DNA of 64,000 nucleotides from an uncultured Pelagibacteraceae bacterium (lineage in GTDB: Bacteria; Pseudomonadota; Alphaproteobacteria; Pelagibacterales; Pelagibacteraceae). Positions 15,263 to 57,231 of this stretch are shown here, piece after piece. Position numbers and translations under genes: made by a program. The stretch's first letter is position 1; each line of letters opens with the position of its first letter. The notes below the pieces were generated by a model. It was not told the origin of the DNA. It was given only the letters and a program-made list of their open reading frames with translations, and made no database searches. The DNA lies in assembly GCA_902542235.1 (NCBI GenBank), contig CACBTT010000001.1, positions 34,058-98,057 of the forward strand, in the 5' to 3' direction.

Positions 15263-16222
15263 TTAATTTAATATTAATTTTTTATTGTTAATTATAGATT
15301 TAATTAATTTTGTCATCAAAGGGATTTTTTTTTGTTGGATTTTTTTTAATATAAATGGAGCAATTTCTCTTGCAAGTTGCTCTCCCTCTACAGTTTCATT
15401 TGGCATAAATTTTCTTTTAGCATTATTAAATGTATAACCTTGCCCCAAGTAACCTCCCATTTTACTATTTCTACCTCCAGCAGCACTGACGTATAGATCT
15501 CCAATTCCAGCTAATCCAAGAGCGGTTTCAATTTTTCCTTTAAAATATTTAGTAATATATATCATCTCATTAATAGATTTTTTGAATAAACTTGATGACA
15601 TATTTAAACTATCTCCAGCTCCAATTATCATAGAATAAATATTTTTTATTGCTGAACAAATTTCTATTCCAATAATATCTTTTGAAGTCTCTGTTATGTA
15701 ATATTTTGTAGAAATCATTTTGCATATATTCTTTGCAGTTTTTATATTTTTATTAGCTACAACAACACTTGTTTGTTTTTTATTAGAAAGTTCTTTTGCT
15801 AAACAAGGTCCTTTTAAGACAGATATATTTATATTTTTAATATTTTTTTTTATATCTTCAGAAATAGTATAAATTTTTTCCTTTTTTCTATCATACTTTA
15901 AGCCTTTAGTGAGAATTAGGACTGGACTTTTAATTTTTGATTGTTTGAATTCTTCACTAATAAATTTTATTCCTGATAAACTTAAAGCAACAACAACTAA
16001 ATCATATTTTTTTTTTAGTAAGTTTGTTGAATATTTTTTATATTTTAGCTTACTAGGTAAATTTTTTTTCAAACTTGAATGATATTTATTATTTGAGGAT
16101 AAATTTTTAATAAAAACTTTATTATACGGCTCTGTTATTATTACTTTATTTTTATTATCAATACATGGAAAAGTAAAAGCTGATCCCATTGCTCCTCCAC
16201 CTATTATTAATATTTCTTTCAC
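15263..16222 (-). CDS. gpsA: NAD(P)H-dependent glycerol-3-phosphate dehydrogenase-like protein (start revised to GTG at 16222)
   Basis: KEILIIGGGAMGSAF Rossmann motif, SVLKGPCLAKEL, GLAGIGDLYVSAAGGRNSKMG. The track start at 16264 extends into the upstream permease. GTG at 16222 overlaps the permease TAG and starts just before the Rossmann motif. Confidence 0.8.
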   Translation of the reverse strand: MKEILIIGGGAMGSAFTFPCIDNKNKVIITEPYNKVFIKNLSSNNKYHSSLKKNLPSKLKYKKYSTNLLKKKYDLVVVALSLSGIKFISEEFKQSKIKSPVLILTKGLKYDRKKEKIYTISEDIKKNIKNINISVLKGPCLAKELSNKKQTSVVVANKNIKTAKNICKMISTKYYITETSKDIIGIEICSAIKNIYSMIIGAGDSLNMSSSLFKKSINEMIYITKYFKGKIETALGLAGIGDLYVSAAGGRNSKMGGYLGQGYTFNNAKRKFMPNETVEGEQLAREIAPFILKKIQQKKIPLMTKLIKSIINNKKLILN

Positions 16223-18249
16223 TAGTTGATAAATCCTAATTTTTTCTTCATTTGATTTGACCATTCAACTAACAATCTATCTGCAGTCAAACCTATAAAT
16301 GCAACACATAATCCTATTATTAAACCTTTGCCCCCATCACTAAAAGACAATGCCCTAAATATTTCTTGCGACAAGTCAACAGTTCCAATAAACCCAGCTA
16401 TCATTACCATAAATAAAGCAAACATTAATGTTTGATTTGCACCTAGTATAATTTCTGGAAAGGCTAAAGGCATTTTTACTTTCCATAATAATTGTCTTTC
16501 TGTACATCCAGAAGTTATAGATGCCTCTATAATTTGTTGTGGAACATTTCTTAATCCAAAAACAGTATATCTTATCATTGGTATTGAGGAATATATAACT
16601 ATTGCAAATATTGCTGAAACATCACTTATTTGAAATAGCATTATTGCTGGAAGTAGATATATAAATGATGGAAATGTTTGAAAAATATCACAAATATTTA
16701 AAACTAACTTTGTTCTGCTCTCTTTCTTTGATGCCCATATCCCCAAAGGAATTCCAATAAGTGCACATATTACTAATGATGCAAATACCATATATAAAGT
16801 AATCATTGCTCTTACCCAATAACCAGATGATGCTATAAAAAATACGAATAACATTACTGTTAACGCTAGTCTCATTTTACCAAGTTTCCACCCAATTGCT
16901 CCGACAAATAAAATTACTCCAGTCCATGGCATAGATTGAAATACAGCCTTAAGAGGCATCAAAAAATATATTAACATCCAATCTCTAAATATTCCTAACG
17001 GTACAAACAAAGATCTTGTAAATGATTTAATGGCATTATCTAAATATACAGATGCTGAAACTGTTAACTCCTTTGGATATTCATTAAAAAATGGAAAAAG
17101 AAAAACTAAGATAGAGCAAATAATAATTGCAAAAAATGTTGCACATAAATATGGATTTCTCTTTACAAAATTCCCCTCTCTTCGCTCTGGTTCTTTTAAT
17201 GCTAAAGCTTGACTATACCTATCAAGTGTAATTGCAATCAAAACAACTGCAACACCAATTTCAAAAGCCTCACCTAGCCTTAAGCCTTGTAATCTAATTA
17301 ACAAGTCATGACCTAAACCAGGTTGTCCAATAAATGCAGCTATAACTATCATTGCAAGACATTGCATTATAACTTGATTTATTCCCAGCATAATTGGGGA
17401 TCTAGCTGCTGGAATTTCAACTTTAAATAACATTTGCCACTTTGTGCAACCAGCCATCACACCAGCTTCTTTTATTTCTTGTGATATATTTTGTAATCCT
17501 AAAATAGTTAATCTAGCCATTGGTGGAAATGCAAATATTACAGTAGCAATTACTCCAGCCTTAGTCCCTATTCCAACAAATATAACTACTAGTATTAAAT
17601 AAGAAAAATGAGGCAAAGATTGTAAAATATTTAACATTGGCCATAAAAAGTTTGCAAATCTTTTTCTCTTGACCGCAAGTATACCCAAACACAATCCTAT
17701 TAATGCAGCCAAAGGTGCAGAGACAGAAATAGCTGCTAAAGATTTCATCGATAGCTCCCATATTCCCCGTTTACTAAATAATATTAAATACGCAAAACAT
17801 GTTCCCCCCAACAATGCCAATCTCCAACCTCTCAAATAAAAACCTAAAATCACTGTAAGAGTTATTATAAATATCCACGGCAAAGGTCCTATTTCGTAGC
17901 TTGGAAAACCTTTGTGCAAGACTGCTTCTGTAAAATCTAAAAATTTATCGACGTAGTTTGCTATACCTCTTGTGAAATCTCTAAAAGTAAAGAATCCGAA
18001 AATTTCATACTTTCTTAGAAATTGAATTAATGCGTTTGTCCAATCTACAAAAGGTATAAATCCATCTATTGATCCGCATCCTCCCAAGCAACTTTTTGGA
18101 GGTATATAAGCCCAGTGTGGTGTTTTAGATGAAATCGTATAATTAGGAACAATATAACGAAGCAACCATAACAAAAAGAATGGTCCAAAAATAAATAAAA
18201 ATTTTCCTTTAAAAATAGTTTTAATTTTATTCATTCTTATCTTCTGCAA
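16222..18249 (-). CDS. proW: Glycine betaine/proline-type ABC permease, two tandem permease domains
   Basis: 675 aa with two EAA-type motifs: QEIKEAGVMAGCTKWQMLFKVEIPAARSPI and QQIIEASITSGCTERQLLWKVKMPLAFPEI. A start at 18234 (MNKIKTIF) is also possible. Confidence 0.9.
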   Translation of the reverse strand: MQKIRMNKIKTIFKGKFLFIFGPFFLLWLLRYIVPNYTISSKTPHWAYIPPKSCLGGCGSIDGFIPFVDWTNALIQFLRKYEIFGFFTFRDFTRGIANYVDKFLDFTEAVLHKGFPSYEIGPLPWIFIITLTVILGFYLRGWRLALLGGTCFAYLILFSKRGIWELSMKSLAAISVSAPLAALIGLCLGILAVKRKRFANFLWPMLNILQSLPHFSYLILVVIFVGIGTKAGVIATVIFAFPPMARLTILGLQNISQEIKEAGVMAGCTKWQMLFKVEIPAARSPIMLGINQVIMQCLAMIVIAAFIGQPGLGHDLLIRLQGLRLGEAFEIGVAVVLIAITLDRYSQALALKEPERREGNFVKRNPYLCATFFAIIICSILVFLFPFFNEYPKELTVSASVYLDNAIKSFTRSLFVPLGIFRDWMLIYFLMPLKAVFQSMPWTGVILFVGAIGWKLGKMRLALTVMLFVFFIASSGYWVRAMITLYMVFASLVICALIGIPLGIWASKKESRTKLVLNICDIFQTFPSFIYLLPAIMLFQISDVSAIFAIVIYSSIPMIRYTVFGLRNVPQQIIEASITSGCTERQLLWKVKMPLAFPEIILGANQTLMFALFMVMIAGFIGTVDLSQEIFRALSFSDGGKGLIIGLCVAFIGLTADRLLVEWSNQMKKKLGFIN

Positions 18250-19255
18250 ATAAAGCTTTGATTATTTCTTTTTTGCTTAATGAACCAATAACTTTTTTAT
18301 TTTCATCAATAACAGAGTAAGATCCTTCGGATTTTAAAACTTTTGATGCGATTTTTTCAATCTTTTCTTTATAGTTAACAGTATTATCATAGAGTTTTTT
18401 ATCCTTATTATTCATAACACTTTCAGCGTTTAATAACTTAGATCTAGGAATATCTTTTGTAAATTCCGCAACATAATCAGTAGCTGGTTTTGTGATTAAT
18501 TCTTCAGGAGTGCCTACTTGGACTATTAATCCTTCATACATTATCGCTATTCTATCTGCCAATCTTATAGCTTCATCAAAATCATGAGTTATAAAAACAA
18601 TTGTCTTTTTAAGCATATTTTGAAGTCTCAAAAACTCGTTTTGCATCTCTTTTCTAATCAATGGATCTAAAGCTGAAAAAGGTTCGTCTAAAAACCAAAC
18701 ATCTGGTTCAACCGCTAAAGACCTTGCTAGTCCAACTCTTTGTTGTTGACCACCCGAAAGTTCTCTAGGATAATATTTTTCTCTACCTTCAAGACCAACT
18801 AATTTAATGACCTCTTTAGCTCTATCTTCTCTTTTAATAGGTTCTATTCCTTGCACCTCTAAAGGAAATGCAACATTTTGTAAAACTGTTCTGTGAGGTA
18901 ATAAAGCAAAATGCTGAAATACCATTCCCATTTTATGTCTTCTTATTTCGATTAACTCTTTATCGCTAGCTTTTAATAAATCTTTACCCTCAAAAAAAAC
19001 TTGACCATCAGTTGGTTGAATAAGTTTAGACATGCATCTTAATAATGTTGACTTACCAGATCCACTCAATCCCATAATAACCAATATTTCTCCAGTTTTT
19101 ACATCAATAGATGCATCTCTAACCGCAGGTATATATTTATTTGATTTTAGTTGCTCGGTTGATGGATTATTATTATTTTCTTTTAAAAACTTTTCTGGAT
19201 TTTCTCCATATAATTTCCAAATATTTGAACATGAAATTTTGATTTGATCGTCCAT
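18227..19255 (-). CDS. proV: Glycine betaine/proline-type ABC ATP-binding protein
   Basis: 342 aa with MGLSGSGKSTLLRCMSKL, LSGGQQQRVGLARSL, VWFLDEPFSALDPLIR, CBS-like C-terminal region. Confidence 0.93.
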   Translation of the reverse strand: MDDQIKISCSNIWKLYGENPEKFLKENNNNPSTEQLKSNKYIPAVRDASIDVKTGEILVIMGLSGSGKSTLLRCMSKLIQPTDGQVFFEGKDLLKASDKELIEIRRHKMGMVFQHFALLPHRTVLQNVAFPLEVQGIEPIKREDRAKEVIKLVGLEGREKYYPRELSGGQQQRVGLARSLAVEPDVWFLDEPFSALDPLIRKEMQNEFLRLQNMLKKTIVFITHDFDEAIRLADRIAIMYEGLIVQVGTPEELITKPATDYVAEFTKDIPRSKLLNAESVMNNKDKKLYDNTVNYKEKIEKIASKVLKSEGSYSVIDENKKVIGSLSKKEIIKALFAEDKNE

Positions 19256-19295
19256 AATAAATAAAGTTAAGAGAACTTAACATAAAATAAAAAAA

Positions 19296-19329
19296 AAACG
19301 AACCGACTTAAGATTATGTCGGTTCGTTT
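19296..19329 (-). terminator. Strong hairpin terminator/attenuator between proX and proV
   Basis: AAACGAACCGAC (19296-19307) pairs perfectly with GTCGGTTCGTTT (19318-19329), 12 bp, 10-nt loop. A run of T follows on the minus strand. Confidence 0.88.
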
Positions 19330-19345
19330 CTAAATAGACTAAAAA

Positions 19346-20290
19346 TTACTTAATCCAATTGCTCCATTTAGATTTGTGGTCATCTAACCATTTTTGAGCA
19401 GCTGCTGATACTTCTAAACCATCCGTGTCCTTGTAGTTAGCCATTTTATCAATGTCTGGACCAGAAAAATTCATCTGTTTTAACAACTTATATCCCGCAG
19501 GATGATTTTTTTTGAAATCAGCATTAACTGCTAATTTTAAGTAACCACTTGCTGGGTTTCCACAATCATAAAGTGCAGTTTTATTGATTCCCCATGAAGG
19601 ATCCTTTGTACAAGCCGGATCATGTTTAGGAAACTCAACAAACTTACCTGGATATTTTGCACCGATGAAATTTGGTGACCAGTTAAACACAACTACAGCT
19701 TTTCCTTGCGCTACACCTGCATCTAATTCAGCCCAAATTGCATCTGCAGAACCTGCATTTTTAACCATGAAGTTCATTCCTAGAGCCTCAACTTTTTCAG
19801 CATCATGTTTTAACCAATCAACAGGACCACCGATAAACACTCCCTTACCTCCAGAGTCTGCTCTTGCAAAAAGATCTGCACATTTATTTAAAGCTTTCCA
19901 ATCTGGTAGACCAGGACAAAGTTTTTCAACATGGTTTGGATACCACCAGTCCTCTCTAGTTACAGCATCGTGAGTAAGAATTTCTTCAATTCCACCACCA
20001 GCTTTTGCTTTTTCATAAGATGCTCCAAACGCACCTTCCCAAATTTCATGAACTAGATCAATATCACCGTCTGCCATTGCTTGGTATACTGCTTGTGAGT
20101 CCATATTAATATACTCTACTTTCTCACCTACCATTTTAAGCAATTCACCAACAACTTCAGCTCCAACTAATTGACTTGACCAATTGTGTGTTGGGATTTT
20201 AACAACTCCGCTTTTATCTGCATTCGCACCTGTAAAACTTAGAGCAAATGTAATCAAAAAAGCAGAAATTATTGATAAAAGTTTCTTCAT
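19346..20290 (-). CDS. proX: Glycine betaine/proline-type substrate-binding protein
   Basis: 314 aa, signal peptide, OpuAC-type sequence (GVVKIPTHNWSSQLVGAEVVGELLKMVGEKVEYINMDSQAVYQAMADGDIDLVHEIWEG). Confidence 0.93.
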   Translation of the reverse strand: MKKLLSIISAFLITFALSFTGANADKSGVVKIPTHNWSSQLVGAEVVGELLKMVGEKVEYINMDSQAVYQAMADGDIDLVHEIWEGAFGASYEKAKAGGGIEEILTHDAVTREDWWYPNHVEKLCPGLPDWKALNKCADLFARADSGGKGVFIGGPVDWLKHDAEKVEALGMNFMVKNAGSADAIWAELDAGVAQGKAVVVFNWSPNFIGAKYPGKFVEFPKHDPACTKDPSWGINKTALYDCGNPASGYLKLAVNADFKKNHPAGYKLLKQMNFSGPDIDKMANYKDTDGLEVSAAAQKWLDDHKSKWSNWIK

Positions 20291-20431: not shown

Positions 20432-22771
20432 ATGTTAGAAGAAAATTTAAGAATAAATGAACCTGGTTTAAATGTTTTGCCACCTGGGGTTGAAAGATAT
20501 GTAATTAATGGCGGTGGACTTACAGGAGTTCAGATTTTTCCAGATGATGAAATAGAAATTATTAATAATGAAGGAAATCAAATTTGCGAAATAGTTGTTT
20601 TTAATTCTGATGGAAATTCAGATCCATCAATTTTAAATTTAAAATCTTCTAAATCAGAAAATGATATAATCAAAATTTTAAATAGAAATGAAGAAAGTTC
20701 AAAAATTGCATTGCGTCAATTAGAAAAAAGAAATCTTAAAATTGCAAAGTCTAAATCTTCAATCCTTTTTGACAAAGACACTCCACCAGGAGAAAAAATT
20801 AAAATAAGTTCCAAAGATAAGTGTTATTGCATTTTTTCTGCACCTGGTAATGATATGTTGGTTCATGAACAAAATCCTCCTACAGAATTAACTTTATTTA
20901 TTAAAAGAAATAATATTATTGACTATAAAGAACATAGAATAATTCCAGATCCAATTTTTGATCCTTTAGACGAAAAAAATATTGCAAAACAATCAGCGAT
21001 TTCTTTTGAAGTTAAAGAAGGAGATTATATTCAAATAATTTGTCCAACTGGTAGACAATGTTCAGATTTTGTTGCTTTTGATACAGCTAAATTAGGTAAA
21101 GGTGTAGAGAAAGGTTTAGATTGGCAAACAACCAGGACCTTTATGGGTAATACTTTTCCAGGACCGGGATTGTATTCAAAATTTTATGATACAGACCATG
21201 AACCTTTAGTAGAAGTAATAAGAGATACTGTTGGTAGACATGACACTTTTAATCTTGCTTGTACATCGAAGTATTACGAAGATGCTGGTTATTTTGGGCA
21301 TCCAAATTGCTCAGATAACTTAAGTGGTGCTATGGAAAATTTTGGGGTTAATAGACAAAAAGGATGGCACGCTATAAATTTATTTTTTAATACTTCAGCA
21401 GGAGGTTTAAATACCGTACTTTCTGATGAGTCATTTGCTAGACCTGGAGATTATGTAATATTAAGAGCTTTAAAAGATTTAACCTGCGGAACATCAGCCT
21501 GTCCAAGTGATATAGATCCATGTAATTCATGGAACCCTACAGATATTTTTGTTAGAACTTATGAAAAAAAAAGAGAATTTACAAAATCTTTTGCATTTAG
21601 AATGAAACCAGACTCAGAATTAAAACTAACAAAAAATACAGGATTTCATGAAAGAACTTCTAAATTAACAAGAAATTTTGTTGATGCTAGAGGATATTGG
21701 CTACCAAATGATTACACTAAACACGGAGTAATAAATGAATATACAGCGTGTAGAGAAAAAGCAGTTCTAATTGATTTATCTTCATTAAGAAAATTTGAAA
21801 TATTGGGTCCTGATGCAGAGGAATTGATGGACTATACTTTAACTAGAAATGTTAAAAAATTGTCGGTTGGACAGATTGTTTATTCTTCGATGTGTTATGA
21901 AAATGGTTCTATGTTTGATGATGGAACATTGTTAAAAATGAGTGATCATGGATTTAGATGGGTATGTGGTGATGAATACGCAGGTGAATGGTTAAAAGAA
22001 CAAGCAAAAAAGAAAAAATTTAATGTTTTAGTTAAAAACTCTACTGATCAAATAAATAATATTTCTCTACAAGGACCAAACAGTAGGAAAATTTTAGAAA
22101 AGTTTATTTTTACTCCACCAACACAACCTTCTATTTCAGAATTACAATGGTTTAGGTTTACAATCTGTAGAGTAAGAGAACTTAGTGGAATTCCATTGAT
22201 GGTTTCTAGAACTGGATACACAGGCGAGTTAGGATATGAAATATGGTGTCACCCTTCAGATGCACCAGCGGTTTGGGATGTGCTCATAGAAGCTGGAAAA
22301 GATGAAGGATTAATACCTGCTGGTTTTGGAGCATTAGATTTATTAAGAATTGAAGCTGGTCTAATATTGTTTGGTAATGAATTTGACGGCCAAGTTGACC
22401 CGTTCGAAGCAGGTGTTGGATTTACGGTTCCTTTAAAAACCAAAACAGCAGATTTCATTGGTAAAGAAGCATTAATAAAGAGAAAAGAAAATCCGCAAAA
22501 GAAATTAGTTGGATTAGAACTTGTAGGCAAAGAAAAAGCTAATCACGGTGATTGTGTTCACATTGGAAGATCCCAAGTTGGCGTAGTTACAAGCGGATGT
22601 CTATCTCCTACTTTGAATAAAAATATTGCTTTGTGCAGAATTGATGTAGGTCATTCAGAAATAGGTATGAATGTTGAAGTCGGTAAAATTGATGGACATC
22701 AAAAAAGAATACCTGCTAAAGTTGTTGGTTTCCCGCATTACGATCCTCAAAAAACACGTGTAAAATCTTAA
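20432..22771 (+). CDS. DUF1989 (urea carboxylase-associated) domain fused to GcvT/aminomethyltransferase domain
   Basis: 779 aa. DUF1989-like motifs GRQCSDFVAFD, GRHDTFNLACTSKYYE, HPNCSDNL, CGTSACPSDIDPCNSWNPTDI. Then GcvT-like motifs LQGPNSRKILEKF, SRTGYTGELGYEIWC, GALDLLRIEAGL. Confidence 0.85.
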   Translation: MLEENLRINEPGLNVLPPGVERYVINGGGLTGVQIFPDDEIEIINNEGNQICEIVVFNSDGNSDPSILNLKSSKSENDIIKILNRNEESSKIALRQLEKRNLKIAKSKSSILFDKDTPPGEKIKISSKDKCYCIFSAPGNDMLVHEQNPPTELTLFIKRNNIIDYKEHRIIPDPIFDPLDEKNIAKQSAISFEVKEGDYIQIICPTGRQCSDFVAFDTAKLGKGVEKGLDWQTTRTFMGNTFPGPGLYSKFYDTDHEPLVEVIRDTVGRHDTFNLACTSKYYEDAGYFGHPNCSDNLSGAMENFGVNRQKGWHAINLFFNTSAGGLNTVLSDESFARPGDYVILRALKDLTCGTSACPSDIDPCNSWNPTDIFVRTYEKKREFTKSFAFRMKPDSELKLTKNTGFHERTSKLTRNFVDARGYWLPNDYTKHGVINEYTACREKAVLIDLSSLRKFEILGPDAEELMDYTLTRNVKKLSVGQIVYSSMCYENGSMFDDGTLLKMSDHGFRWVCGDEYAGEWLKEQAKKKKFNVLVKNSTDQINNISLQGPNSRKILEKFIFTPPTQPSISELQWFRFTICRVRELSGIPLMVSRTGYTGELGYEIWCHPSDAPAVWDVLIEAGKDEGLIPAGFGALDLLRIEAGLILFGNEFDGQVDPFEAGVGFTVPLKTKTADFIGKEALIKRKENPQKKLVGLELVGKEKANHGDCVHIGRSQVGVVTSGCLSPTLNKNIALCRIDVGHSEIGMNVEVGKIDGHQKRIPAKVVGFPHYDPQKTRVKS

Positions 22772-23121
22772 TGTCAAAATCATCAAAGGATTTATTGGAA
22801 TTTTGGGAAGATCAAATGAAACTGTCCCATACATCCAGTAATTACTTTTTCAGAAAGTCTCCTTCACATTATCACATGATGTTGATTGTGATGAATTCCT
22901 ATAAATTAAATGAAAACTTATCTGTCGAAGAACTTAAGACTAGACTTTTCAAAACCTCAAGACCCAAATCTGCGCTCATGATTAAAGAAGCTTGTGATAA
23001 AGAATTTTTTTACCTCGAAAAAACCGGAAATGACCATAGAAAAAAGTACGTTTTACCCACACAGAATTTTGTTAATGATTTTAACGAATATTTGAAAACT
23101 CTCAAAAATTTGAGTTTTTAA
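22771..23121 (+). CDS. Conserved hypothetical, possibly winged-helix regulator
   Basis: 116 aa, abuts the upstream stop. Composition and the MIKEACDKEFFYLEKTGNDHRKKYVLPT segment resemble a wHTH wing. Confidence 0.6.
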   Translation: MSKSSKDLLEFWEDQMKLSHTSSNYFFRKSPSHYHMMLIVMNSYKLNENLSVEELKTRLFKTSRPKSALMIKEACDKEFFYLEKTGNDHRKKYVLPTQNFVNDFNEYLKTLKNLSF

Positions 23122-23210: not shown

Positions 23211-24539
23211 ATGTCGTTACCGACAAAAGCAAAAGTTGTAATAATTGGTGGAGGAATTCACGGGTTAAGTACTGCTTGGAAACTTTCCGAAAAATATAAA
23301 AATCCAAACGATGTAGTTGTCCTAGAAAAAAAAGACACTGCTGCAGGTGCAAGTGGAATTGCATGTGGAGTTGTTAGAAATAATTATTTTCAACCAGCAA
23401 TGAGAGAATTAATGGCTCATTCAGTTAGTGTTTGGGAAAGTGATCCAGAGGCATTTAAATATAATGCTGTTGGCTATATGCAAATTTCTCCAGAAGTAAT
23501 GCATAAAGATGTTGCAAGTATTTATGAACAACAAAAAGCTATTGGATATGAATCAGAATTTATAGAAGGTGAAAAAGATTGCATGAAATATATGCAAGGA
23601 ATTTTTAGTGATTGGCAAGCAAAAGGTATTACATCCGTCTTGCATGAAAAAAAAGGTGGATATGCATTTAATAAAGACTCAATTAAAGCACTAGAGAAAA
23701 AAGCAAATTCAAACGGTGTAAAAGTTCATAAAGGAGTAAAGGTTACAGGTTTTAAAAGAGGGAGTAACAGCAATGCAATTACTGGCGTGGTTACAGATAA
23801 AGGTACAATTGATTGTGATCAGGTAGTTATTGGAGCAGGACCATGGGTAAGAGATTTTTGGAATATGTTGGAGTTACCAAAAACTACTAACATAAAAGAT
23901 GCTAAAAATGGAAAAATGCATGAAGTTGAAATGTGGAAGTACTGGTTTTTACAAGAAGGTGTATTGGGTGTAGATGCAGATTATTTAAAAACTAATGAAG
24001 GTAAAGCGCCTCCAGTAATCCATGTTGATACAGATGCTCCACTTTATTCTGATAAAGATGGTAAAATAATTACAGAAGACTTATGGGGTATTTATTATAA
24101 ACCTGATATTGAAGGTTTGGGAGTTCAAGGTGGAACATCGCCTTATATAGTTCAAAAACATTTTGATGAAGTTAATGTTGATCCATATGGAATTGACTCT
24201 CCTGAATATCAAACTACTGATAAATTTTCTGATATGTGGACTTCGGCACTTGCACATATCCAAAAACGTTTTGTTGGTAAATCTCATTTGTATAGAAAGG
24301 GACCATCAGGAGGATTGGGTTGTTTAACTCCAGATTCATTCCCGATATTCGATAGATTTTTTGAAAATGTTTACATGATTGCTGATGCAAATCATGGTTA
24401 TAAAATGATAGGTGTAGGGCACCTTGTTGCACAAGAAATTTTAGGTCAAGAAAGCGAATTACTAAAACCGTTCAGGTTCGATAGATATGAAAAAGGCAAA
24501 CTTCATCCGACATCGAACAGTCCGTTTCCTTGGAGTTAA
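23211..24539 (+). CDS. FAD-dependent oxidoreductase (SoxB / dimethylglycine-dehydrogenase-like, DAO family)
   Basis: 442 aa with AKVVIIGGGIHGLSTAWKLSEKY, AAGASGIACGVVRNNYF and C-terminal DANHGYKMIGVGHLVAQEI. Confidence 0.88.
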   Translation: MSLPTKAKVVIIGGGIHGLSTAWKLSEKYKNPNDVVVLEKKDTAAGASGIACGVVRNNYFQPAMRELMAHSVSVWESDPEAFKYNAVGYMQISPEVMHKDVASIYEQQKAIGYESEFIEGEKDCMKYMQGIFSDWQAKGITSVLHEKKGGYAFNKDSIKALEKKANSNGVKVHKGVKVTGFKRGSNSNAITGVVTDKGTIDCDQVVIGAGPWVRDFWNMLELPKTTNIKDAKNGKMHEVEMWKYWFLQEGVLGVDADYLKTNEGKAPPVIHVDTDAPLYSDKDGKIITEDLWGIYYKPDIEGLGVQGGTSPYIVQKHFDEVNVDPYGIDSPEYQTTDKFSDMWTSALAHIQKRFVGKSHLYRKGPSGGLGCLTPDSFPIFDRFFENVYMIADANHGYKMIGVGHLVAQEILGQESELLKPFRFDRYEKGKLHPTSNSPFPWS

Positions 24540-24564
24540 TTTATCTAAGTAGACAAACGTTTTT

Positions 24565-24606
24565 TTTTCAGTTACCTTTTTGATCTGAAAATTCAAAGGG
24601 GGAAGA
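24565..24606 (+). promoter_or_regulatory. Candidate H-type pseudoknot leader overlapping the RBS of the glnT-like gene
   Basis: TTTTCAG (24565-24571) pairs with CTGAAAA (24585-24591). Loop CCTTTTTGA can pair with TCAAAGG (24593-24599), which overlaps the G-rich SD AAAGGGGG. Confidence 0.4.
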
Positions 24607-26076
24607 ATGACGGATCTTGAAAAACACGTAAACCAACCAGGTAGAGCTAAACTCGTCAAAAAAGTTAGAGAAAAAATAAACGAATTAGGAATTACTTATA
24701 TATATTATCAATTTATTTCAGTAACTGGAAGAGTTGTTGGAAAAGGAATACCGGCAGATCATTGGGAAAGAACTGCAGAAAAAGGTTTTCAATTAGTTTA
24801 TGGAGCAACTGCAAACTTATTTTTAGATCGTCATAATAATTATATTGGTTACGGTCCAGAGGCTATGGAATTGGTAGGAATACCTGATCCAGAAACTTTT
24901 GTTCAGTTACCTTGGGATAAGAGAGTTGGGAGAGTTTTTGTTACGTGTTTTAGAAACAGAGAAGAAAGAAAAAATCCAGGTGGTCATTTAACAAGTGACT
25001 GCAGAGGTAATCTTAGAATTTTCATGAATGAATTCAAAAAGAAACATGGATTAGAGTTAAGAGTTGGAACCGAGCCTGAAATGATGTGGTTAACAAAAAA
25101 TCCTGACGGAACTCCAACGGGTCAAGGTTTCTCTAAACCTTTCTGTTATCACATTGATCAATTTGAATCTTTAAGACCTGTGTTTATGAAGGTTATTGAA
25201 TACGCAAAAGCGATGGGTCTTGATATGATACAAGGTGACCATGAAGATGCTCCTGGTCAATTAGAGCTTAACTGGACATTTGATAATGTTTTAAGAAACG
25301 CAGATAGATTATCTACGTATAGACAAATTTGTGCTCAAGTAGCAAGAGAACATAATCTTATAGCTTGCTTTATGACTAAACCATTTATGGGAGTTTCAGC
25401 AAGTGGATGTCACACCAACATGTCTTTGTGGAAAGGTGGAAAAGTATCAGTAAACAAATTGGGTAACAAAAAACTTCCAGGTGTAGAGGAAGTATTTAGT
25501 TATGTATCAGGAGGGACTAATACTTTCATGCCAGATACTAAAGATATGCAATTACCTGGAAAGATTGGATTACAATCAATCGCAGGGATAATGAAACACT
25601 TACCAGCTTTAACAGCAATTGGTTCTTCGACAGTGAACTCATATAGAAGATTATGGGATCAAGGTTTTTGGGCACCAGTATATGCTGACTGGGGTTATCA
25701 AAATAGAACATGTGGTTTAAGAGTATCTGCTCCAGGTAGATTCGAGTACAGATCAGTTGACTCTATGCATAATCCATATTTATTAGGTGCAGCATTACTT
25801 AAAGCTTGTGATGAAGGAATATCTAAAAAAATGAAACCAGCTAAACCTGAGTCTAGAAATATATATGAAGCTCAAAAAGCTGGTAAAGATGTTAAAAAAC
25901 TTCCACTAAGTTTAGGTGAAGCTTTAGATAGATTGGCGGAAGATGAGGTAATAAAATCATCAATGCCAGATGAAATGTATAAAGTATTTAATTGGTACAA
26001 ACGAGATGAATGGGAAAAATTCTTAGGTGCAACAACACAATGGGATCTTGATACTTATCTGGATTGTTTACCATAA
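24607..26076 (+). CDS. glnT: Glutamine synthetase family protein (GlnT-like)
   Basis: 489 aa GS fold (EPEMMWL, GDHEDAPGQLELNWTFDN, APGRFEYRSVDSMHNPYLLGAALLKA). Lies directly upstream of glxBCD homologues. Confidence 0.82.
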   Translation: MTDLEKHVNQPGRAKLVKKVREKINELGITYIYYQFISVTGRVVGKGIPADHWERTAEKGFQLVYGATANLFLDRHNNYIGYGPEAMELVGIPDPETFVQLPWDKRVGRVFVTCFRNREERKNPGGHLTSDCRGNLRIFMNEFKKKHGLELRVGTEPEMMWLTKNPDGTPTGQGFSKPFCYHIDQFESLRPVFMKVIEYAKAMGLDMIQGDHEDAPGQLELNWTFDNVLRNADRLSTYRQICAQVAREHNLIACFMTKPFMGVSASGCHTNMSLWKGGKVSVNKLGNKKLPGVEEVFSYVSGGTNTFMPDTKDMQLPGKIGLQSIAGIMKHLPALTAIGSSTVNSYRRLWDQGFWAPVYADWGYQNRTCGLRVSAPGRFEYRSVDSMHNPYLLGAALLKACDEGISKKMKPAKPESRNIYEAQKAGKDVKKLPLSLGEALDRLAEDEVIKSSMPDEMYKVFNWYKRDEWEKFLGATTQWDLDTYLDCLP

Positions 26077-26093
26077 TTTAATAAGGAAATTAT

Positions 26094-27035
26094 ATGTGCG
26101 GAATAGCAGGATTAATTCATAGAGGAAATACATCAAATGTAGGTTTTGAACTCCAAGGAATGCTTCAAGCATTAAAGCATAGGGGTGAGGACTCAACTGG
26201 ATATGCTTTGTATGGAAAAACTGATGGAGAAAATTTCATCATGCGATTTAAGGTTGGTGAAAATGTTGCAGAGGGAAGCTCTTCAGTAAAAGAAGATGTA
26301 TCAGTTTATGATGAAAGAAAAAAAATTGTTGATTCTTATCTTTCTGAGCTAGGCGCTAAGGTGATAAAAGAAGATAGAATTCTTCCTTATTCATTACGGT
26401 ATGAAATTCAGTATGACAAAGATTTAATGGAATTTTCTCAAAAAATAGAAAGTGTTGAAGGTGTAGAAATATTATCTATGGGAAAATCTCTAGAAGTAAT
26501 TAAAGATCTGGGAAATGCTGAAGTTGTTTGTAACAGATATAATTTAGATAAAGTTGTCGGGACACATGCAATTGGTCATGCTAGAATGGCAACAGAGTCG
26601 GGAGTGGATATTAAATCTGCTCACCCATTTTGGGGTTATCCTTTTAGCGATGTATCAGTCGTTCATAATGGACAATTAACAAACTATTGGAATAATAGAA
26701 GAGTATTGGAAAACAAGGGCATGAGATTTATGTCAGAATGTGACTCGGAATTAATCGCTGTATATCTTGCAGAAAAAATGAGAAATGGAGCTACATTAGA
26801 AGAGGGAATGAAAGAGTCTCTCGTCGGTTTAGATGGGGTATTTACTTATTTTGTTGCTACAAAAGATAGTTTAGGGATGGCGAAAGATACAATGGCTGCA
26901 AAACCACTAGTATTGTATGAGTCAGATGATTTAGTTGCAATGGGGTCAGAGGAAATTGCAATAAGATCAATATTACCACAAGAAATCGAAACTTATGATC
27001 CTTTTGATGGAGAAGTTAAAGTATGGCAAATTTAA
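26094..27035 (+). CDS. mgsA: Class II glutamine amidotransferase subunit of N-methylglutamate synthase (MgsA/GlxB)
   Basis: 313 aa starting MCGIAGLIHRG with nucleophile Cys2. VGTHAIGHARMATESG, HNGQLTNYWNNR. Confidence 0.85.
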   Translation: MCGIAGLIHRGNTSNVGFELQGMLQALKHRGEDSTGYALYGKTDGENFIMRFKVGENVAEGSSSVKEDVSVYDERKKIVDSYLSELGAKVIKEDRILPYSLRYEIQYDKDLMEFSQKIESVEGVEILSMGKSLEVIKDLGNAEVVCNRYNLDKVVGTHAIGHARMATESGVDIKSAHPFWGYPFSDVSVVHNGQLTNYWNNRRVLENKGMRFMSECDSELIAVYLAEKMRNGATLEEGMKESLVGLDGVFTYFVATKDSLGMAKDTMAAKPLVLYESDDLVAMGSEEIAIRSILPQEIETYDPFDGEVKVWQI

Positions 27036-27877
27036 AAACATCAGAAAAAAAAAGTAAAGCTCAATCAATGGGACTTCATACAGAAGTCTTAACTGGAAAA
27101 ACACAACAAAAATTTTTTAATCCAGATGAGGCTGAGAATTTTTATTACTTTGGGACATATGATGTAGATTTTAACAAAAGAACTGAAATTGACGTTAAGA
27201 ACATGGATTGTCGTGAAGCAAATAAAAAAATTGATGAATTAATGAAAGATGGATACGGAACTATTGTAATAAAGAACCCACAGGGAAAACATAGCTTGGG
27301 AGTTGGAATTCTCAATAAATTAAATTTAATATTTGAAGGTAGTTTAGGGTACTTTGGGTGTGGATCAATGGATGGTCCTATTGTTAGAATTAATGGAAGA
27401 GTGGGATGGTCATGTGCAGAAAATATGATGGCAGGAAAAGTAGTAATTGAAAAAAATGCAGGTTCTTGTTTTGGTGCGGCAATTAGAGGTGGAGATCTGA
27501 TATGCAAAGGAAGCGTAGGTGCAAGAACTGGTATTGATCAAAAAGGTGGAACAATAATTATTGGCGGAGATGCTGGTGCTTTTACAGGTTTTATGATGCA
27601 GAGAGGGCGAATTATTATTCTTGGAGATGTTGGAATAAATTTAGGAGATTCTATGTATGATGGGACAATTTTTGTAGGTGGAAAAATTGGATCATTTGGT
27701 AGTGATGCTGTCGAAGCTGAATTAACTGATTCAGATCAAGACTGGCTTAAAAGAAAATTAAAGGTTGCGGAGATCGGAGAAAACTTCGATGTTTCTAAGA
27801 TGACCAAAGTTGTAGCAGGAAAAAAACTTTGGAATTACGATGCTCTTGAACCTACAGAAAAAAAAGGAGCAATTTAA
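27023..27877 (+). CDS. mgsB: GltB C-terminal beta-helix-like subunit (MgsB/GlxC)
   Basis: 284 aa with repeated Gly-rich beta-helix (GGDLICKGSVGARTGIDQKGGTIIIGGDAGAFTGFMMQRGRIIILGDVGINLGDSMYDGTIFVGG). Overlaps the upstream gene by 13 nt. Confidence 0.87.
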   Translation: MANLKTSEKKSKAQSMGLHTEVLTGKTQQKFFNPDEAENFYYFGTYDVDFNKRTEIDVKNMDCREANKKIDELMKDGYGTIVIKNPQGKHSLGVGILNKLNLIFEGSLGYFGCGSMDGPIVRINGRVGWSCAENMMAGKVVIEKNAGSCFGAAIRGGDLICKGSVGARTGIDQKGGTIIIGGDAGAFTGFMMQRGRIIILGDVGINLGDSMYDGTIFVGGKIGSFGSDAVEAELTDSDQDWLKRKLKVAEIGENFDVSKMTKVVAGKKLWNYDALEPTEKKGAI

Positions 27878-29269
27878 ATGGCAAAGAAAAAAAATGGTAA
27901 TGGAAAGTCATACGGACATTCTAATGGTGATGGAATAGCTTCAAGAAACAAAAGTTTATTGGGACACAACGCTATTTTTACTCCAGAGGTTATGGACGAC
28001 ATTCATATCAAAGCAGAATTAGGAAGATACAGAATGAGAGGAATGGCTTTGATGAAAAAGATACCTACTTTTGATGATCTAGTTTTCTTGCCAGGTACAT
28101 TAACAAGATTTGTTATTGAAGGTTATAGAGAAAAATGTGAGACCAAAACTATTATTGGTCCAAGATGTGAAAATCCAATTGAGCTTGATATTCCAGTTTA
28201 TATTACGGGAATGAGTTTTGGAGCTTTATCTTATGAAGCAAAAACTGCATTAGCTAGAGGTGCTACAATGGCTGGTAGCGCAACATGTTCTGGTGAAGGT
28301 GGAATGATACCAGATGAGAGAAGATATTCAGAAAAATGGTTTTATCAGTGCATACAATCAAGATACGGTTTTAACCCACACCATGCTCAACTAGCTGATG
28401 GAATTGAGGTTTTTATTGGACAAGGGCAAAAAGTTGGAATGGGTGGTCATTTGATGGGTCAAAAAGTTACTGACCAAGTTGCAGAAATGAGATCGCTACC
28501 CGCAGGTATTGATCAAAGATCTCCGGCAAGACATCCTGATTGGTTGGGTCCAGATGATTTAGCTTTAAAAGTTCAAGAACTTAGAGAATTAACAAAAAAC
28601 AAAGTGCCAATTCAATTAAAACTTGGAGCAGCTAAAGTGTATGATGATGTAAGGATGGCAGCAAAATGTGATCCAGACTCAATTTATCTTGATGGAATGG
28701 AGGGTTCAACTGGTGCTGGGCCACACATTGCAGCTGCAAACACAGGAATCCCTGGAATTGCTGGAATTAGAGAAGCAAGAAGAGCTTTGGATGACGTAGG
28801 TAAAACTGGAAAAGTAACTTTAATTTATGCAGGTGGTGTTAGAGATGGAGCAGATATGGCTAAAGCTTTAGCACTTGGTGCAGACGCAATTGCAATCGGA
28901 ACAGGTGCAATGGTGGCTTTAAATTGTAATAAGGAAATACCAGAATCTAACTTTGAAAAAGAAATGGGTGTTCCCGCAGGTCATTGCTATCACTGTCACA
29001 CGGGTAGATGTCCGGTAGGAGTTGCTACTCAAGATCCTAAATTAAGAAAAAGATTAAATCCTGATGATGCAGCATTAAGAGTGTATAATTACTTGCATGC
29101 GATGACATTGGAGGCTCAGTTGTTGGCTAGAGCATGTGGTAAAACAAATATTCACTCGCTAGAACCAGAAGATATGGCTGCATTAACAATGGAGGCGTCT
29201 GCTTTAGCTAAAGTGCCTCTTGCAGGAACAAATCATACAGTAGGAGTTAAAGATTTCCATAAAATCTAA
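27878..29269 (+). CDS. mgsC: FMN-binding glutamate synthase catalytic subunit (MgsC/GlxD)
   Basis: 463 aa with YITGMSFGALSYEAK, DGMEGSTGAGP, Fe-S cysteines CYHCHTGRCPVGVATQDP. Confidence 0.9.
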   Translation: MAKKKNGNGKSYGHSNGDGIASRNKSLLGHNAIFTPEVMDDIHIKAELGRYRMRGMALMKKIPTFDDLVFLPGTLTRFVIEGYREKCETKTIIGPRCENPIELDIPVYITGMSFGALSYEAKTALARGATMAGSATCSGEGGMIPDERRYSEKWFYQCIQSRYGFNPHHAQLADGIEVFIGQGQKVGMGGHLMGQKVTDQVAEMRSLPAGIDQRSPARHPDWLGPDDLALKVQELRELTKNKVPIQLKLGAAKVYDDVRMAAKCDPDSIYLDGMEGSTGAGPHIAAANTGIPGIAGIREARRALDDVGKTGKVTLIYAGGVRDGADMAKALALGADAIAIGTGAMVALNCNKEIPESNFEKEMGVPAGHCYHCHTGRCPVGVATQDPKLRKRLNPDDAALRVYNYLHAMTLEAQLLARACGKTNIHSLEPEDMAALTMEASALAKVPLAGTNHTVGVKDFHKI

Positions 29270-29277
29270 TAGCAAAT

Positions 29278-29688
29278 ATGCCAAAGAAAAAAGGTAAGAA
29301 AAAAGTCAAATCAAAAGAGATCAAAGGTCAATTAGGCAAGAAAAAAGAGACTGCTAGAGAAAAAATGATTGGCCAAACAATTGGCTATCGATATGACGTT
29401 AATCTTTTGCCTGACTATAGTCGACTCACTCCATTTTTAAAAAAATATATAGAAGCTATGGGTTGGGATGATCTTAATTGGTTAGAAGATGTTCATATGG
29501 GTTATGAAGAAAATAGACCTGCTGTATTCGATAGAAATGCTAATGGTTGGGTAACGATACCAAGTAAAATAAAATTACCTAACAATCAGCAGGATAGAGA
29601 TATGATAGCTAGAGAATTATTGGTAAAGTTTCAAATGTCACCGAATCATCCTCTGGTTGACCTTAAAAAAGCATATTTAAAATTCTAA
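29278..29688 (+). CDS. Conserved hypothetical protein with Lys-rich N-terminus
   Basis: 136 aa starting MPKKKGKKKVKSKEIKGQLGKKKET, co-directional and 8 nt after mgsC. Confidence 0.7.
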   Translation: MPKKKGKKKVKSKEIKGQLGKKKETAREKMIGQTIGYRYDVNLLPDYSRLTPFLKKYIEAMGWDDLNWLEDVHMGYEENRPAVFDRNANGWVTIPSKIKLPNNQQDRDMIARELLVKFQMSPNHPLVDLKKAYLKF

Positions 29689-29805: not shown

Positions 29806-31206
29806 ATGACTGATCAATTAGGTGCTCTCACAACCTTATTTACAGAATTTTACTATTGGGTAACTGTGGTTCTTATGTTTTTGATCCACGTGGGTTTCTG
29901 TATGTATGAGGTTGGGGCATCTCGTTACAAACATCACCAACATACTCTTATGAAAAATACAATGCTGATACCACTGGTAACAGTCACATGGTTTTTCTTT
30001 GGTTGGTGGATATACTGGGCGTTTCCAACAGGACCTGGATTAGCTCCTTCGATTATGACCGAAAGTACCGGTCTAGTTCTTGGGGGTGGATTTGGTGGAA
30101 ATGATCTTGCTAACCCTACAAATGCATTGATGGCCGTAAATCTTAATGATCATATAATGGGTGTCTTCTGGGCAGCCTTTTTATTATTTTCATGGACTGC
30201 AGCTTCAATTGTATCTGGAGCGGTTATTGAAAGGATAACTACTTTTGCATTTGGAATACTTGCAATTGCAATTGGGTCTGTTTTCTGGACAATAGATGCT
30301 TCATGGGGATGGCATTTTGATGGATGGATGTTAAAAATATTAGGATATCACGATGCTTATGCTTCCGGAGTAATTCACGCCATTGCCGGAGGTTTTGCCT
30401 TAGGAGTTCTAATTGTTTTAGGACCAAGAATTGGAAAATTTTCATCTAGCGGAGAACCAAGAAACATTGGACCAAGAAATCCTTGGTTAGTGACTGTTGG
30501 ATTATTCTTAATCTATACAGGTTTTTGGGGCTTTTACGCAGCATGTAATGTTCCGATTTATGATCTTGGACCTGAATATGGTATGGAAGGTGTAACTTTC
30601 TTTACTGCAACGAACATCTACCTAACTCCAACCACACTTAGTGGAATAACGATGAACTTTTTAATGTCGTTATCTGGAGGGTTGTTAGCGGGATATGTGG
30701 TCTCGAAGGGAGATCCTTTCTGGACTTATTCATCAGGACTTGCAGGAATAATATGTGCATCTGCAGGTAATGATTTATATCATCCAATACAATCAATGAT
30801 AATTGGTATGATCGGAGTAGTTATAGCTTACAAAATGCATTACTGGGTCGAGAAAAAATATAAAATCGACGATGCAGTTGGAGCAGTAGCTGTTCATGGT
30901 TATGCTGGATTTGTTGGTCTTGTAATATGTGGTTTCGTTTTAAATGGTTATCCTTCATCTGGATACAGTGTTGGAGCTATGTGGGATGGAACCAATTATG
31001 CAGCAATTAATCCTCTTGGAATGTTTATCGGTGCAATAATAATGTTTTTTGTACTAGGTATGCTCCCTGGATATATAATTGCAAAAGTTCTTCACGGAAT
31101 GGGTAAATTAAGAATACCAAGAGAAGTAGAGCTTGCAGGACTTGACTATACAATTATGGAAGAGGCTAAAGAAGACGAAAAAGCTGTAGTCTCGGCCAGT
31201 AGATAA
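29806..31206 (+). CDS. amt: Ammonium / methylammonium transporter
   Basis: 466 aa, about 11 TM segments, with GGGFGGNDLANPTNALMAVN, SWGWHFDGWML, ASGVIHAIAGGFALGVLIVLGPR, AVAVHGYAGFVGLVICG. Confidence 0.93.
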   Translation: MTDQLGALTTLFTEFYYWVTVVLMFLIHVGFCMYEVGASRYKHHQHTLMKNTMLIPLVTVTWFFFGWWIYWAFPTGPGLAPSIMTESTGLVLGGGFGGNDLANPTNALMAVNLNDHIMGVFWAAFLLFSWTAASIVSGAVIERITTFAFGILAIAIGSVFWTIDASWGWHFDGWMLKILGYHDAYASGVIHAIAGGFALGVLIVLGPRIGKFSSSGEPRNIGPRNPWLVTVGLFLIYTGFWGFYAACNVPIYDLGPEYGMEGVTFFTATNIYLTPTTLSGITMNFLMSLSGGLLAGYVVSKGDPFWTYSSGLAGIICASAGNDLYHPIQSMIIGMIGVVIAYKMHYWVEKKYKIDDAVGAVAVHGYAGFVGLVICGFVLNGYPSSGYSVGAMWDGTNYAAINPLGMFIGAIIMFFVLGMLPGYIIAKVLHGMGKLRIPREVELAGLDYTIMEEAKEDEKAVVSASR

Positions 31207-31219
31207 AGGAGGTATGTAA

Positions 31220-31441
31220 ATGGCAACAGTATCAAATTGGATAGATCATTTAAGTGCCTCTGAGGTACAAGGATCTGTCTATCCAGGTGTTGGTTCGGAA
31301 GGAGTGCTAGTTATAATAGCAATTCTTATTTGGGTTGGCTGGCATATTATTTCATCTAAACAAGAAGATGGTAAGATGAATGAAATTGTCAGAAAAAAAC
31401 CAAGTGCTAACGACTGGAAAAGCAATATAACAGACGGTTAA
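31220..31441 (+). CDS. Small single-TM protein following amt
   Basis: 73 aa preceded by AAGGAGG. One TM segment (GVLVIIAILIWVGWHII). Followed by a terminator. Confidence 0.75.
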   Translation: MATVSNWIDHLSASEVQGSVYPGVGSEGVLVIIAILIWVGWHIISSKQEDGKMNEIVRKKPSANDWKSNITDG

Positions 31442-31448
31442 AACTTTT

Positions 31449-31484
31449 AAGAGGGCGCATGAAATACTGTGCCCTCTTTTTTTT
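31449..31484 (+). terminator. Rho-independent terminator after amt-73 aa pair
   Basis: AAGAGGGCGCA (31449-31459) pairs with TGTGCCCTCTT (31468-31478), one G-U, followed by T-run. Confidence 0.88.
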
Positions 31485-31485
31485 A

Positions 31486-31650
31486 ATGCAAAATTCTGAA
31501 GAAAATAATCAAAATGAAAATAAAACTCCTAGCAAAATGGCACGTCTTGCATGGCCAAAAGCAAAGTATGGAGTAATTATAGCAATATTAATTATTATTG
31601 GTGTAAATTTAATTTATTACAAAGATTTCTTTTTATCATTTTTTAAATAA
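31486..31650 (+). CDS. Small single-TM protein (start revised from the ORF track)
   Basis: 54 aa MQNSEENNQNENKTPSKMARLAWPKAKYGVIIAILIIIGVNLIYYKDFFLSFFK. The track start at 31459 lies inside the terminator. Confidence 0.6.
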   Translation: MQNSEENNQNENKTPSKMARLAWPKAKYGVIIAILIIIGVNLIYYKDFFLSFFK

Positions 31651-31667
31651 TTGTGTTACGTTATTAG

Positions 31668-32993
31668 ATGGCAAAAAATTTATTTAAAATTTCAAAACAA
31701 AAAAAAATTAAATATTTTTTGATAAGTTTTGTAGATTTATTTGGTGTCTTAAGATCAAAATTGGTTCCTGCTCATGCAATAAAAGATATGCAAGTAAGTG
31801 GTGCTGGATTTGCTGGATTTGCAGCTTGGCTAGATATGACGCCAGCTGACTCTGATATGTTTGCAATACCTGATCCTGACAGTTTAATTCAACTACCATG
31901 GAATAAAGAAGTTGGTTGGTTAGCTTCGGATTTATGGATGAATGGTAAACCAGTCGATGCTTCACCAAGAGTGATATTAAAAAAACAAATAAAAAAATTA
32001 TCTGAATTGGGATACAGCATGAAGTCAGGTGTGGAGTGTGAGTATTTTTTGATTTCTCCTGATGGGAACACAATTGCAGATAATAGAGATACTCAATCAA
32101 AACCTTGTTATGACCAGTCCTCATTAATGAGAAGGTATGAGCTTATAAAAGAAATATGTGATTGTATGATTGAAATGGGATGGGGTCCTTATCAAAATGA
32201 TCATGAAGATGCTAATGGGCAATTTGAAATGAATTGGGATTACTCAGATTGTCTAAAAACTGCTGACAGACATACTTTTTTTAAATTTATGGTTAAAACT
32301 ATTGCAGAAAAGCATGATTTAAGAGCAACATTTATGCCAAAACCTTTTGAAAATTTGACTGGTAACGGATGTCATGCACATATTTCTTTATGGAAAGGAA
32401 AGAAAAATATCTTTCTTGATCAACATGATAAACTTGGGCTAAGCAAGATCGCTTATAATTTTTTAGGAGGCATTATGAGGCATGCTTCATCCTTATCTAC
32501 TTTTTTTAATCCAACAATAAATAGTTACAGACGAATAAATGCTGCACCAACAAAATCTGGTGCCACATGGTCTCCAAGCAGCATATCATATACAGGAAAT
32601 AACCGTACACATATGATAAGGGTGCCTGATCCAGGAAGATTTGAATTAAGACTTATGGATGGATCCGCAAATCCTTATTTACTTCAAGCCAGTGTATTAG
32701 CTGCAGGAATGGAGGGATTAAGTAAAAGAATTAATCCTGGCAAACCTCTTTTTTGTAATATGTATGAGGATTATAAAAAATATCCAAACCTTTCTAAATT
32801 ACCAAATGAACTAAAAGATTCTCTTGATAAAATTGAAAATAATAAAGAAATGAATAAAGCATTTGGAAAAGAAGTAATTAAAAGTTACGTCAAGTTAAGG
32901 ACTTCGGAATTAAAAGATTTTAATAATAACGAAAAATTTGATAAGTCCAAACCAATTACAAAATGGGAAAGACAAAATACTCTAGACTGTTAA
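31668..32993 (+). CDS. gmaS: Glutamine synthetase family, gamma-glutamylmethylamide synthetase-like
   Basis: 441 aa with KIKYFLISFVDLFGVLRSKLVPAHAI, GAGFAGFAAWLDMTPADSDMFAIPDPDSLIQLPW, NDHEDANGQFEMNWDYSDCL. Confidence 0.75.
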   Translation: MAKNLFKISKQKKIKYFLISFVDLFGVLRSKLVPAHAIKDMQVSGAGFAGFAAWLDMTPADSDMFAIPDPDSLIQLPWNKEVGWLASDLWMNGKPVDASPRVILKKQIKKLSELGYSMKSGVECEYFLISPDGNTIADNRDTQSKPCYDQSSLMRRYELIKEICDCMIEMGWGPYQNDHEDANGQFEMNWDYSDCLKTADRHTFFKFMVKTIAEKHDLRATFMPKPFENLTGNGCHAHISLWKGKKNIFLDQHDKLGLSKIAYNFLGGIMRHASSLSTFFNPTINSYRRINAAPTKSGATWSPSSISYTGNNRTHMIRVPDPGRFELRLMDGSANPYLLQASVLAAGMEGLSKRINPGKPLFCNMYEDYKKYPNLSKLPNELKDSLDKIENNKEMNKAFGKEVIKSYVKLRTSELKDFNNNEKFDKSKPITKWERQNTLDC

Positions 32994-56007: not shown

Positions 56008-57231
56008 ATGCAAAACGAATTAAACAAAGTCAGATTTTCTGTAAAACCTTTAAAATCCAATGATAATAAAGTTGTTGAGCTTGCACGGACTGTCGGGATA
56101 CATCCTCTAGCGTATCAAGAACTTCCCTATGATCCTGAGTATTCATTTTATGCAGGAAGATTAAATCCAGAAGTACTTTCAAACGCTACTGCTGATGAAA
56201 TGTATTGGAAAGTAAGACAAGAGGTAATTTTTCGTCATACTGGTGAACATCCATATGAAATATCTGGTCCTGATGCAGAAAAACTTTTACAAAAAATATT
56301 CACAAGAGATATCTCAAATGTAAAAGTAGGAAGATGCTCATACCAATTTGCTTGTTACAATGATGGAGGCATGCTGACAGATGGAGTTTTGCTAAAACTT
56401 GAAGAAAATAAATTTTGGTTTGTTCAAGCTGATGGTGATCTTTTTTCATGGTATAAAGCTCACACTGATAATCTTAATGTAAAAATTTCTGACCCAGACG
56501 TTTGGGTAAGTCAAATTCAGGGACCAAAATCTATGGATCTTTTAAAAGTTTTAAGTAAAGAAACTTTTCCTGATACTTGGAAATATTTTGATTGGAAAGA
56601 AATTACTATACTTAATGAAAAAGTGATCATAAGTAGATCAGGATTTAGTAATGAACTTGGTTGGGAAATTTATTTTAGAAAAAATAATAATACTGAAAAA
56701 ATTGGGGATTATATTCTTGAAGAAGGAAAAAAAATGGGAATGATACTCACAGGTACCCCTGGTTTTAGATGTAAAAGAATAGAATCTGGATTATTATCAG
56801 CTGGGCAAGACTTTAATCATAAAACAAATCCATATGATGTTGGTTTAGGTAAATATGTCGATTTAAAAAAAAATTATTTTATTGGAAAAGCGGCATTGAT
56901 GACTGCTGATAAAGAAAAAAGATGTTGGGGAATACGGGTAGAAAATGGAACAGGTTTAAAAGGAACTTACATAAAATTCAATAATGAAATAATTGGAAAA
57001 ATTACATCAAGTACTTGGTCGCCTTTTCAAAAATGTGGTGTTGGAATAGTTTTAATGAATTCTACAAAACATAAACCTGGATTAATAGTGGATGTTAATT
57101 GCAGTGATAATAAAATTCATAAAGGTGAAATATGCACCTTGCCAATGTATGACTTTAAAAATGAAATTGTAAGAGGTTTAAAAATAGATATTCCAACAGG
57201 TCCTTCTCCGTGGTCAGGAATAAAAAAATAA
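56008..57231 (+). CDS. Aminomethyltransferase/GcvT family protein (DmdA-like demethylase candidate)
   Basis: 407 aa with EISGPDAEKLLQKIFTRDISNVKVGRCSYQFACYNDGGMLTDGVLLKL, ISRSGFSNELGWEIYF, RCKRIESGLLSAGQDF. Confidence 0.85.
   Translation: MQNELNKVRFSVKPLKSNDNKVVELARTVGIHPLAYQELPYDPEYSFYAGRLNPEVLSNATADEMYWKVRQEVIFRHTGEHPYEISGPDAEKLLQKIFTRDISNVKVGRCSYQFACYNDGGMLTDGVLLKLEENKFWFVQADGDLFSWYKAHTDNLNVKISDPDVWVSQIQGPKSMDLLKVLSKETFPDTWKYFDWKEITILNEKVIISRSGFSNELGWEIYFRKNNNTEKIGDYILEEGKKMGMILTGTPGFRCKRIESGLLSAGQDFNHKTNPYDVGLGKYVDLKKNYFIGKAALMTADKEKRCWGIRVENGTGLKGTYIKFNNEIIGKITSSTWSPFQKCGVGIVLMNSTKHKPGLIVDVNCSDNKIHKGEICTLPMYDFKNEIVRGLKIDIPTGPSPWSGIKK

Follow-up and report, generated by a model that had tools for sequence, protein, structure and literature searches.

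A trimethylamine N-oxide demethylase gene of a SAR11 bacterium and the operon that accompanies it

What does a protein that joins a DUF1989 domain to a complete GcvT domain act upon? The question is raised by an open reading frame at 20432-22771 (+ strand) of the window analysed here, a 64,000-nucleotide stretch of DNA from an uncultured Pelagibacteraceae bacterium. The frame is intact from ATG to stop and encodes 779 residues. An earlier note, made from the sequence alone, took the product to be an enzyme that acts on an N-methylated compound and passes the methyl group to tetrahydrofolate (THF). We find that the frame is almost certainly tdm, the trimethylamine N-oxide (TMAO) demethylase gene of a SAR11 bacterium (Pelagibacteraceae), and infer that the product of this copy demethylates TMAO, releasing dimethylamine (DMA) and formaldehyde. 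The gene is thus a known one in a previously described setting, and the fusion is not a new architecture; Tdm was reportedly identified in papers of 2014.

Identity of the two-domain protein

Pfam places DUF1989 at residues 183-350 (E 8e-40), where the earlier note had expected it at about 170-380, followed by GCV_T at 406-664 (E 2e-66) and GCV_T_C at 690-771 (E 1e-18), each above its gathering score; the description of a single 779-aa frame containing DUF1989 and a full GcvT part (406-771) is thereby borne out. Pfam recognises nothing in the N-terminal ~170 residues. The corresponding part of Methylocella silvestris Tdm is reported to be a second, degenerate DUF1989-like domain devoid of the zinc cysteines (PMC12560246), and residues ~1-175 of the present Tdm are taken as a DUF1989-like region.

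Over its whole length the protein matches the NCBIfam equivalog NF053776, 'trimethylamine N-oxide demethylase', at 1104.9 bits (residues 16-778; model positions 9-762 of 763). The score lies close to the cut-off of 1100 bits, and the identification is therefore not based on this model alone. Some SAR11 tdm orthologues score slightly under the cut-off, at 1083-1099 bits; since their metal site is conserved, as described below, what such scores reflect is how close to the SAR11 branch the cut-off was placed, and the family is the same. Three PDB entries named TMAO demethylase (9q59, 9q5l and 9q5a) align with residues 17-778 at E 3e-247 and 826 bits. M. silvestris Tdm, with these structures, is a characterised enzyme of the same architecture, which by the earlier note's own terms counts against its reading; a literature search found no published structure paper on Tdm. 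The predicted structure (AlphaFold, mean pLDDT 84.8) matched GcvT and DUF1989 structures in Foldseek, and as 9q59 was not among the best 50 fold matches, the agreement with that entry is sequence-based.

The 80 closest genome matches of tdm are all from Pelagibacteraceae, and 80 SAR11 contigs carry orthologues of the same length, 82-99% identical. When the gene was compared with three SAR11 orthologues, pN was 0.12-0.22 and pS about 0.60; it is therefore under purifying selection.

The DUF1989 domain also matches the urea amidolyase-associated families TIGR03424 and TIGR03425, at 70.9 and 32 bits, as might be expected of a UAAP-related enzyme acting on a methylated urea, guanidine or betaine and delivering the methyl group to THF. 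These matches are weak, however, far lower than the respective cut-offs of 284.7 and 206; it is the Tdm model and the Tdm structures that match the whole protein, and the neighbouring genes examined included neither urea carboxylase nor allophanate hydrolase. The assignment to UAAP1/2 or carboxyguanidine deiminase is accordingly rejected, and we consider such an enzyme extremely improbable. Stand-alone DUF1989 proteins (PDB 3oru/3siy; UAAP1/2) share the DUF1989 fold with its zinc cysteines but have no GcvT domain and belong to a different pathway. A single enzyme with an N-methylated substrate remains an apt description; the class of substrate does not, TMAO being an N-oxide.

GcvT, DmdA and dimethylglycine dehydrogenase/oxidase, for their part, share the GcvT fold of Tdm residues 401-775 but lack DUF1989, in place of which DMGDH and DMGO carry an FAD domain. 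A single-domain T-protein working with GcvH was also considered and rejected: TIGR00528 reaches 239 bits (cut-off 235.85), over residues 401-768 only, inside a two-domain protein. The window encodes two more GcvT-fold proteins, at 56008-57231 and 61140-62303, which share about 30% identity with the GcvT portion of Tdm and are likely to be DmdA-like or other C1 transferases.

The metal and folate sites

The zinc ligands of M. silvestris Tdm are C263, C279 and C343, its proposed iron ligands are H276 and D346, and a further residue, D198, is known from earlier mutagenesis (PMC12560246). We transferred these positions to the SAR11 protein by alignment and counted their conservation in 39 orthologues. 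Every published zinc ligand and proposed iron ligand is kept, in agreement with the metal site that had been predicted for DUF1989. C277 (codon 21260-21262, equivalent to C263), C293 (21308-21310, C279) and C357 (21500-21502, C343) are invariant in the 39, as are H290 (21299-21301, H276) and D212 (21065-21067, D198); D360 (21509-21511, D346) is aspartate in 37 of them. All these codons are on the + strand.

The folate site differs. M. silvestris Tdm has already lost THF contacts at F487 and L618 (PMC12560246), and the corresponding residues here are L501 and F632; use of THF by this copy is therefore uncertain. With these contacts altered in both proteins, the GcvT domain is more likely to have a structural or formaldehyde-handling role than to be an obligate methyltransferase. 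The altered positions, together with the borderline NF053776 score, could also be taken as signs of a Tdm relative whose catalysis has decayed, leaving a scaffold or a residual capacity for formaldehyde transfer only. The published metal ligands are all intact, however, and purifying selection acts on tdm across SAR11, so that we give this idea almost no weight against a working demethylase.

The biochemistry comes from M. silvestris Tdm. This enzyme yields DMA and formaldehyde from TMAO in a 1:1 ratio, whether O2 is present or not; its separated halves are inactive, and THF is dispensable for demethylation, although it slightly lowers formaldehyde release (PMC12560246). The proposal of the earlier note that the methyl group goes to THF is thus upheld only in part: the GcvT domain may receive a one-carbon unit, but THF is not required and the first products are formaldehyde and DMA. 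The reaction, its oxygen independence, the metals and the oligomer have all been demonstrated by others on Tdm orthologues; the observations on the present Tdm concern its family identity, its intact metal ligands and its genomic context. It resembles the enzyme of M. silvestris BL2 in domain order, length, Zn-Cys3 site, His/Asp iron site and role in TMAO catabolism, and differs in its diverged sequence (826 bits over 762 aa), in the two THF-contact residues, and in being encoded, in SAR11, beside an ABC importer.

Taken together, the published chemistry and the conserved residues suggest the following scheme. TMAO would be taken up by the TmoXWV-type importer encoded divergently from tdm. In the DUF1989 domain, the three-cysteine zinc site and the adjacent iron site (His290/Asp360) would split it into dimethylamine and formaldehyde, the oxygen deriving from the substrate and not from O2. 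The fused GcvT-like domain would be needed structurally and, with THF, may lower free formaldehyde, presumably by handing it to THF. The formaldehyde, or C1 unit, would then enter the THF oxidation route. The amine would follow the gmaS/N-methylglutamate route, genes for which lie downstream.

The importer and the adjoining genes

Three genes on the - strand make up the importer. The one nearest tdm, at 19346-20290, encodes a TmoX-type TMAO substrate-binding protein of 314 aa (PF04069) that matches PDB 4xz6, the TmoX of Ruegeria pomeroyi, at E 4e-102 over residues 15-313. Behind it are a tmoV/W-type ABC ATPase gene at 18227-19255 (342 aa; ABC_tran; TIGR01186 proV at 356 bits, cut-off 326.6) and a tmoW/V-type double permease gene at 16222-18249 (675 aa; two BPD_transp_1 stretches). 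The TmoX-type gene is divergent from tdm and adjoins it in all 76 SAR11 contigs that have room for it. The 'proX' from which the earlier note saw the frame diverge is this gene; the gene for the FAD oxidoreductase that it placed downstream does not directly follow tdm but is separated from it by a further gene, described below.

The importer genes of this locus (16222-20290) exist as two alleles, of which the present one is the rarer, found in 11 of the 76 contigs as against 65 for the commoner. TmoX is only ~44% identical between the alleles, whereas identity in the neighbouring tdm is 98-99%, a disparity that suggests replacement of the importer by recombination. The rarer TmoX type scores 345 bits against PDB 4xz6 and the commoner 284.

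The importer also bears on a published reading of the locus. In 2011 the genes of Ca. Pelagibacter ubique HTCC1062 were described as a transporter (SAR11_1302), an 'AMT of unknown substrate' (SAR11_1303) and a monomeric sarcosine oxidase (SAR11_1304), and Sun et al. proposed that SAR11_1303 is a glycine-betaine aminomethyltransferase because the transporter next door was labelled 'glycine betaine' (PMC3160333). The OpuAC domain of the binding protein beside the present tdm would fit that proposal. Yet this protein is TmoX-like, as its match to 4xz6 attests, and the counterpart in HTCC1062 has a Kd for TMAO of about 0.5-0.9 uM and belongs to a functional TMAO importer (PMC8918994); a glycine-betaine enzyme is accordingly most improbable. 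The SAR11_1302/1303 neighbourhood was later recognised as tmoXWV/tdm, and HTCC1062 can grow with TMAO as its only source of nitrogen and responds to TMAO by inducing tmoX, tdm and gmaS (PMC8918994). The tdm (SAR11_1303), tmoXWV and gmaS genes of HTCC1062 represent the same clade and the same gene neighbourhood as those described here (PMC3160333, PMC8918994); the present tdm is from another SAR11 genome, and its tmoXWV is one of the two alternative alleles.

On the downstream side a conserved gene for a protein of 116 aa (22771-23121, + strand) shares one base with the tdm stop codon. Its orthologue adjoins tdm in 75 of the 79 SAR11 contigs with room, and it is under strong purifying selection; its product matched nothing in Pfam above cut-off. 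A structured RNA was also considered for the gap that separates tdm from the FAD gene: Rfam gave no match in the window and the folding z was -0.65, and the idea was rejected, the gap being occupied by this protein gene.

The downstream block and the fate of dimethylamine

Beyond the 116-aa gene is a conserved block of genes, all on the + strand. The first (23211-24539) encodes an FAD oxidoreductase of 442 aa with the DAO/sarcosine-oxidase-beta fold (PF01266; Foldseek), its best Foldseek matches being the beta subunit of heterotetrameric sarcosine oxidase (TM 0.70-0.79). Its position equals that of SAR11_1304 in HTCC1062, for which a literature search found no assigned function. The next (24607-26076) encodes a glutamine-synthetase-like protein of 489 aa (PF00120), and is followed by three genes (26094-27035, 27023-27877 and 27878-29269; GATase_6, GXGXG and Glu_synthase) for a glutamate synthase of a second MgsABC/GlxBCD-like type. 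The products of this set are 33-35% (A, B) and 52% (C) identical to those of the mgsABC genes that adjoin gmaS in relatives. A conserved protein of 136 aa (29278-29688), syntenic in relatives and matching neither Pfam nor NCBIfam, separates the set from a gene of the amt family of ammonium/amine transporters (29806-31206; PF00909).

The glutamine-synthetase-like gene was considered as gmaS and rejected: it scores 294.5 bits against TIGR03105, under the cut-off of 469.6. The true gmaS, for gamma-glutamylmethylamide synthetase, is at 31668-32993 (+ strand, 441 aa), with 617.9 bits in the same model and a match to PDB 7cql at E 9e-168 over residues 4-441. Some SAR11 genomes (G012, G004) have mgsABC upstream of gmaS; at the equivalent place here, 31206-31668, it is absent.

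The arrangement can be compared with the TMA/TMAO cluster of R. pomeroyi DSS-3, which comprises tmm, tmoXWV, tdm, dmmDABC, gmaS-mgsABC and mgdABCD. The two loci have tdm, a TmoX-type importer and gmaS in common; here, no DmmA was found, and the operon for the FAD oxidoreductase and the GS-like and GlxBCD-like proteins is present instead. PF11927, the DmmA family, had no match in this genome (73% complete) or in 60 relatives. SAR11 has been reported to be without dmmDABC, and its lack of the known DMA monooxygenase has been called a bottleneck in the metabolism of marine methylamines (PMC5520151); an isoenzyme of it has been postulated for SAR11 (PMC8918994).

Co-occurrence of tdm, the FAD gene and DmmA was counted in 289 Alphaproteobacteria, only full-length tdm being scored. 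The FAD gene is present in 20 of the 27 genomes with tdm, compared with 11 of the 262 that lack tdm (Fisher p 2e-17). The 27 carriers divide into 19 with the FAD gene only, 4 with DmmA only, one with the two together and 3 with neither (p 0.009, phylogeny not corrected). One of the three with neither (G122) has the GlxBCD-like set, which is absent from all four tdm genomes that have DmmA without the FAD gene. Counted across the Alphaproteobacteria regardless of tdm, the mutual exclusion of FAD gene and DmmA is not significant (Fisher p 0.15), and the notion of the FAD gene as a strict replacement for DmmA throughout the class was dropped; the relation is supported only among tdm carriers.

Because the FAD gene accompanies tdm and largely replaces DmmA among tdm carriers, the block downstream of tdm is the strongest candidate for SAR11's missing DMA step. 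On this co-occurrence evidence we tentatively suggest, with rather less than even confidence, that the operon for the FAD oxidoreductase and the GS-like and GlxBCD-like proteins (23211-29269) provides an alternative to DmmDABC for Tdm-made DMA in SAR11 and in many tdm-carrying Alphaproteobacteria, with the DMA either oxidised directly or processed by way of a glutamyl or N-methylated glutamate intermediate. The second-type GlxBCD set could serve monomethylamine instead, since it is the only such set found beside gmaS in the complete SAR11 genome G235.

In the bacteria that are most numerous in the surface ocean, Tdm is the enzyme that turns TMAO, a common marine osmolyte, into dimethylamine and formaldehyde; naming it here replaces a 'substrate unknown' label and adds no new biology. 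SAR11 makes DMA without a known DMA monooxygenase, though HTCC1062 uses the nitrogen of TMAO (PMC5520151, PMC8918994). The operon that accompanies tdm offers concrete gene candidates for this missing step, and may outweigh tdm itself in importance.
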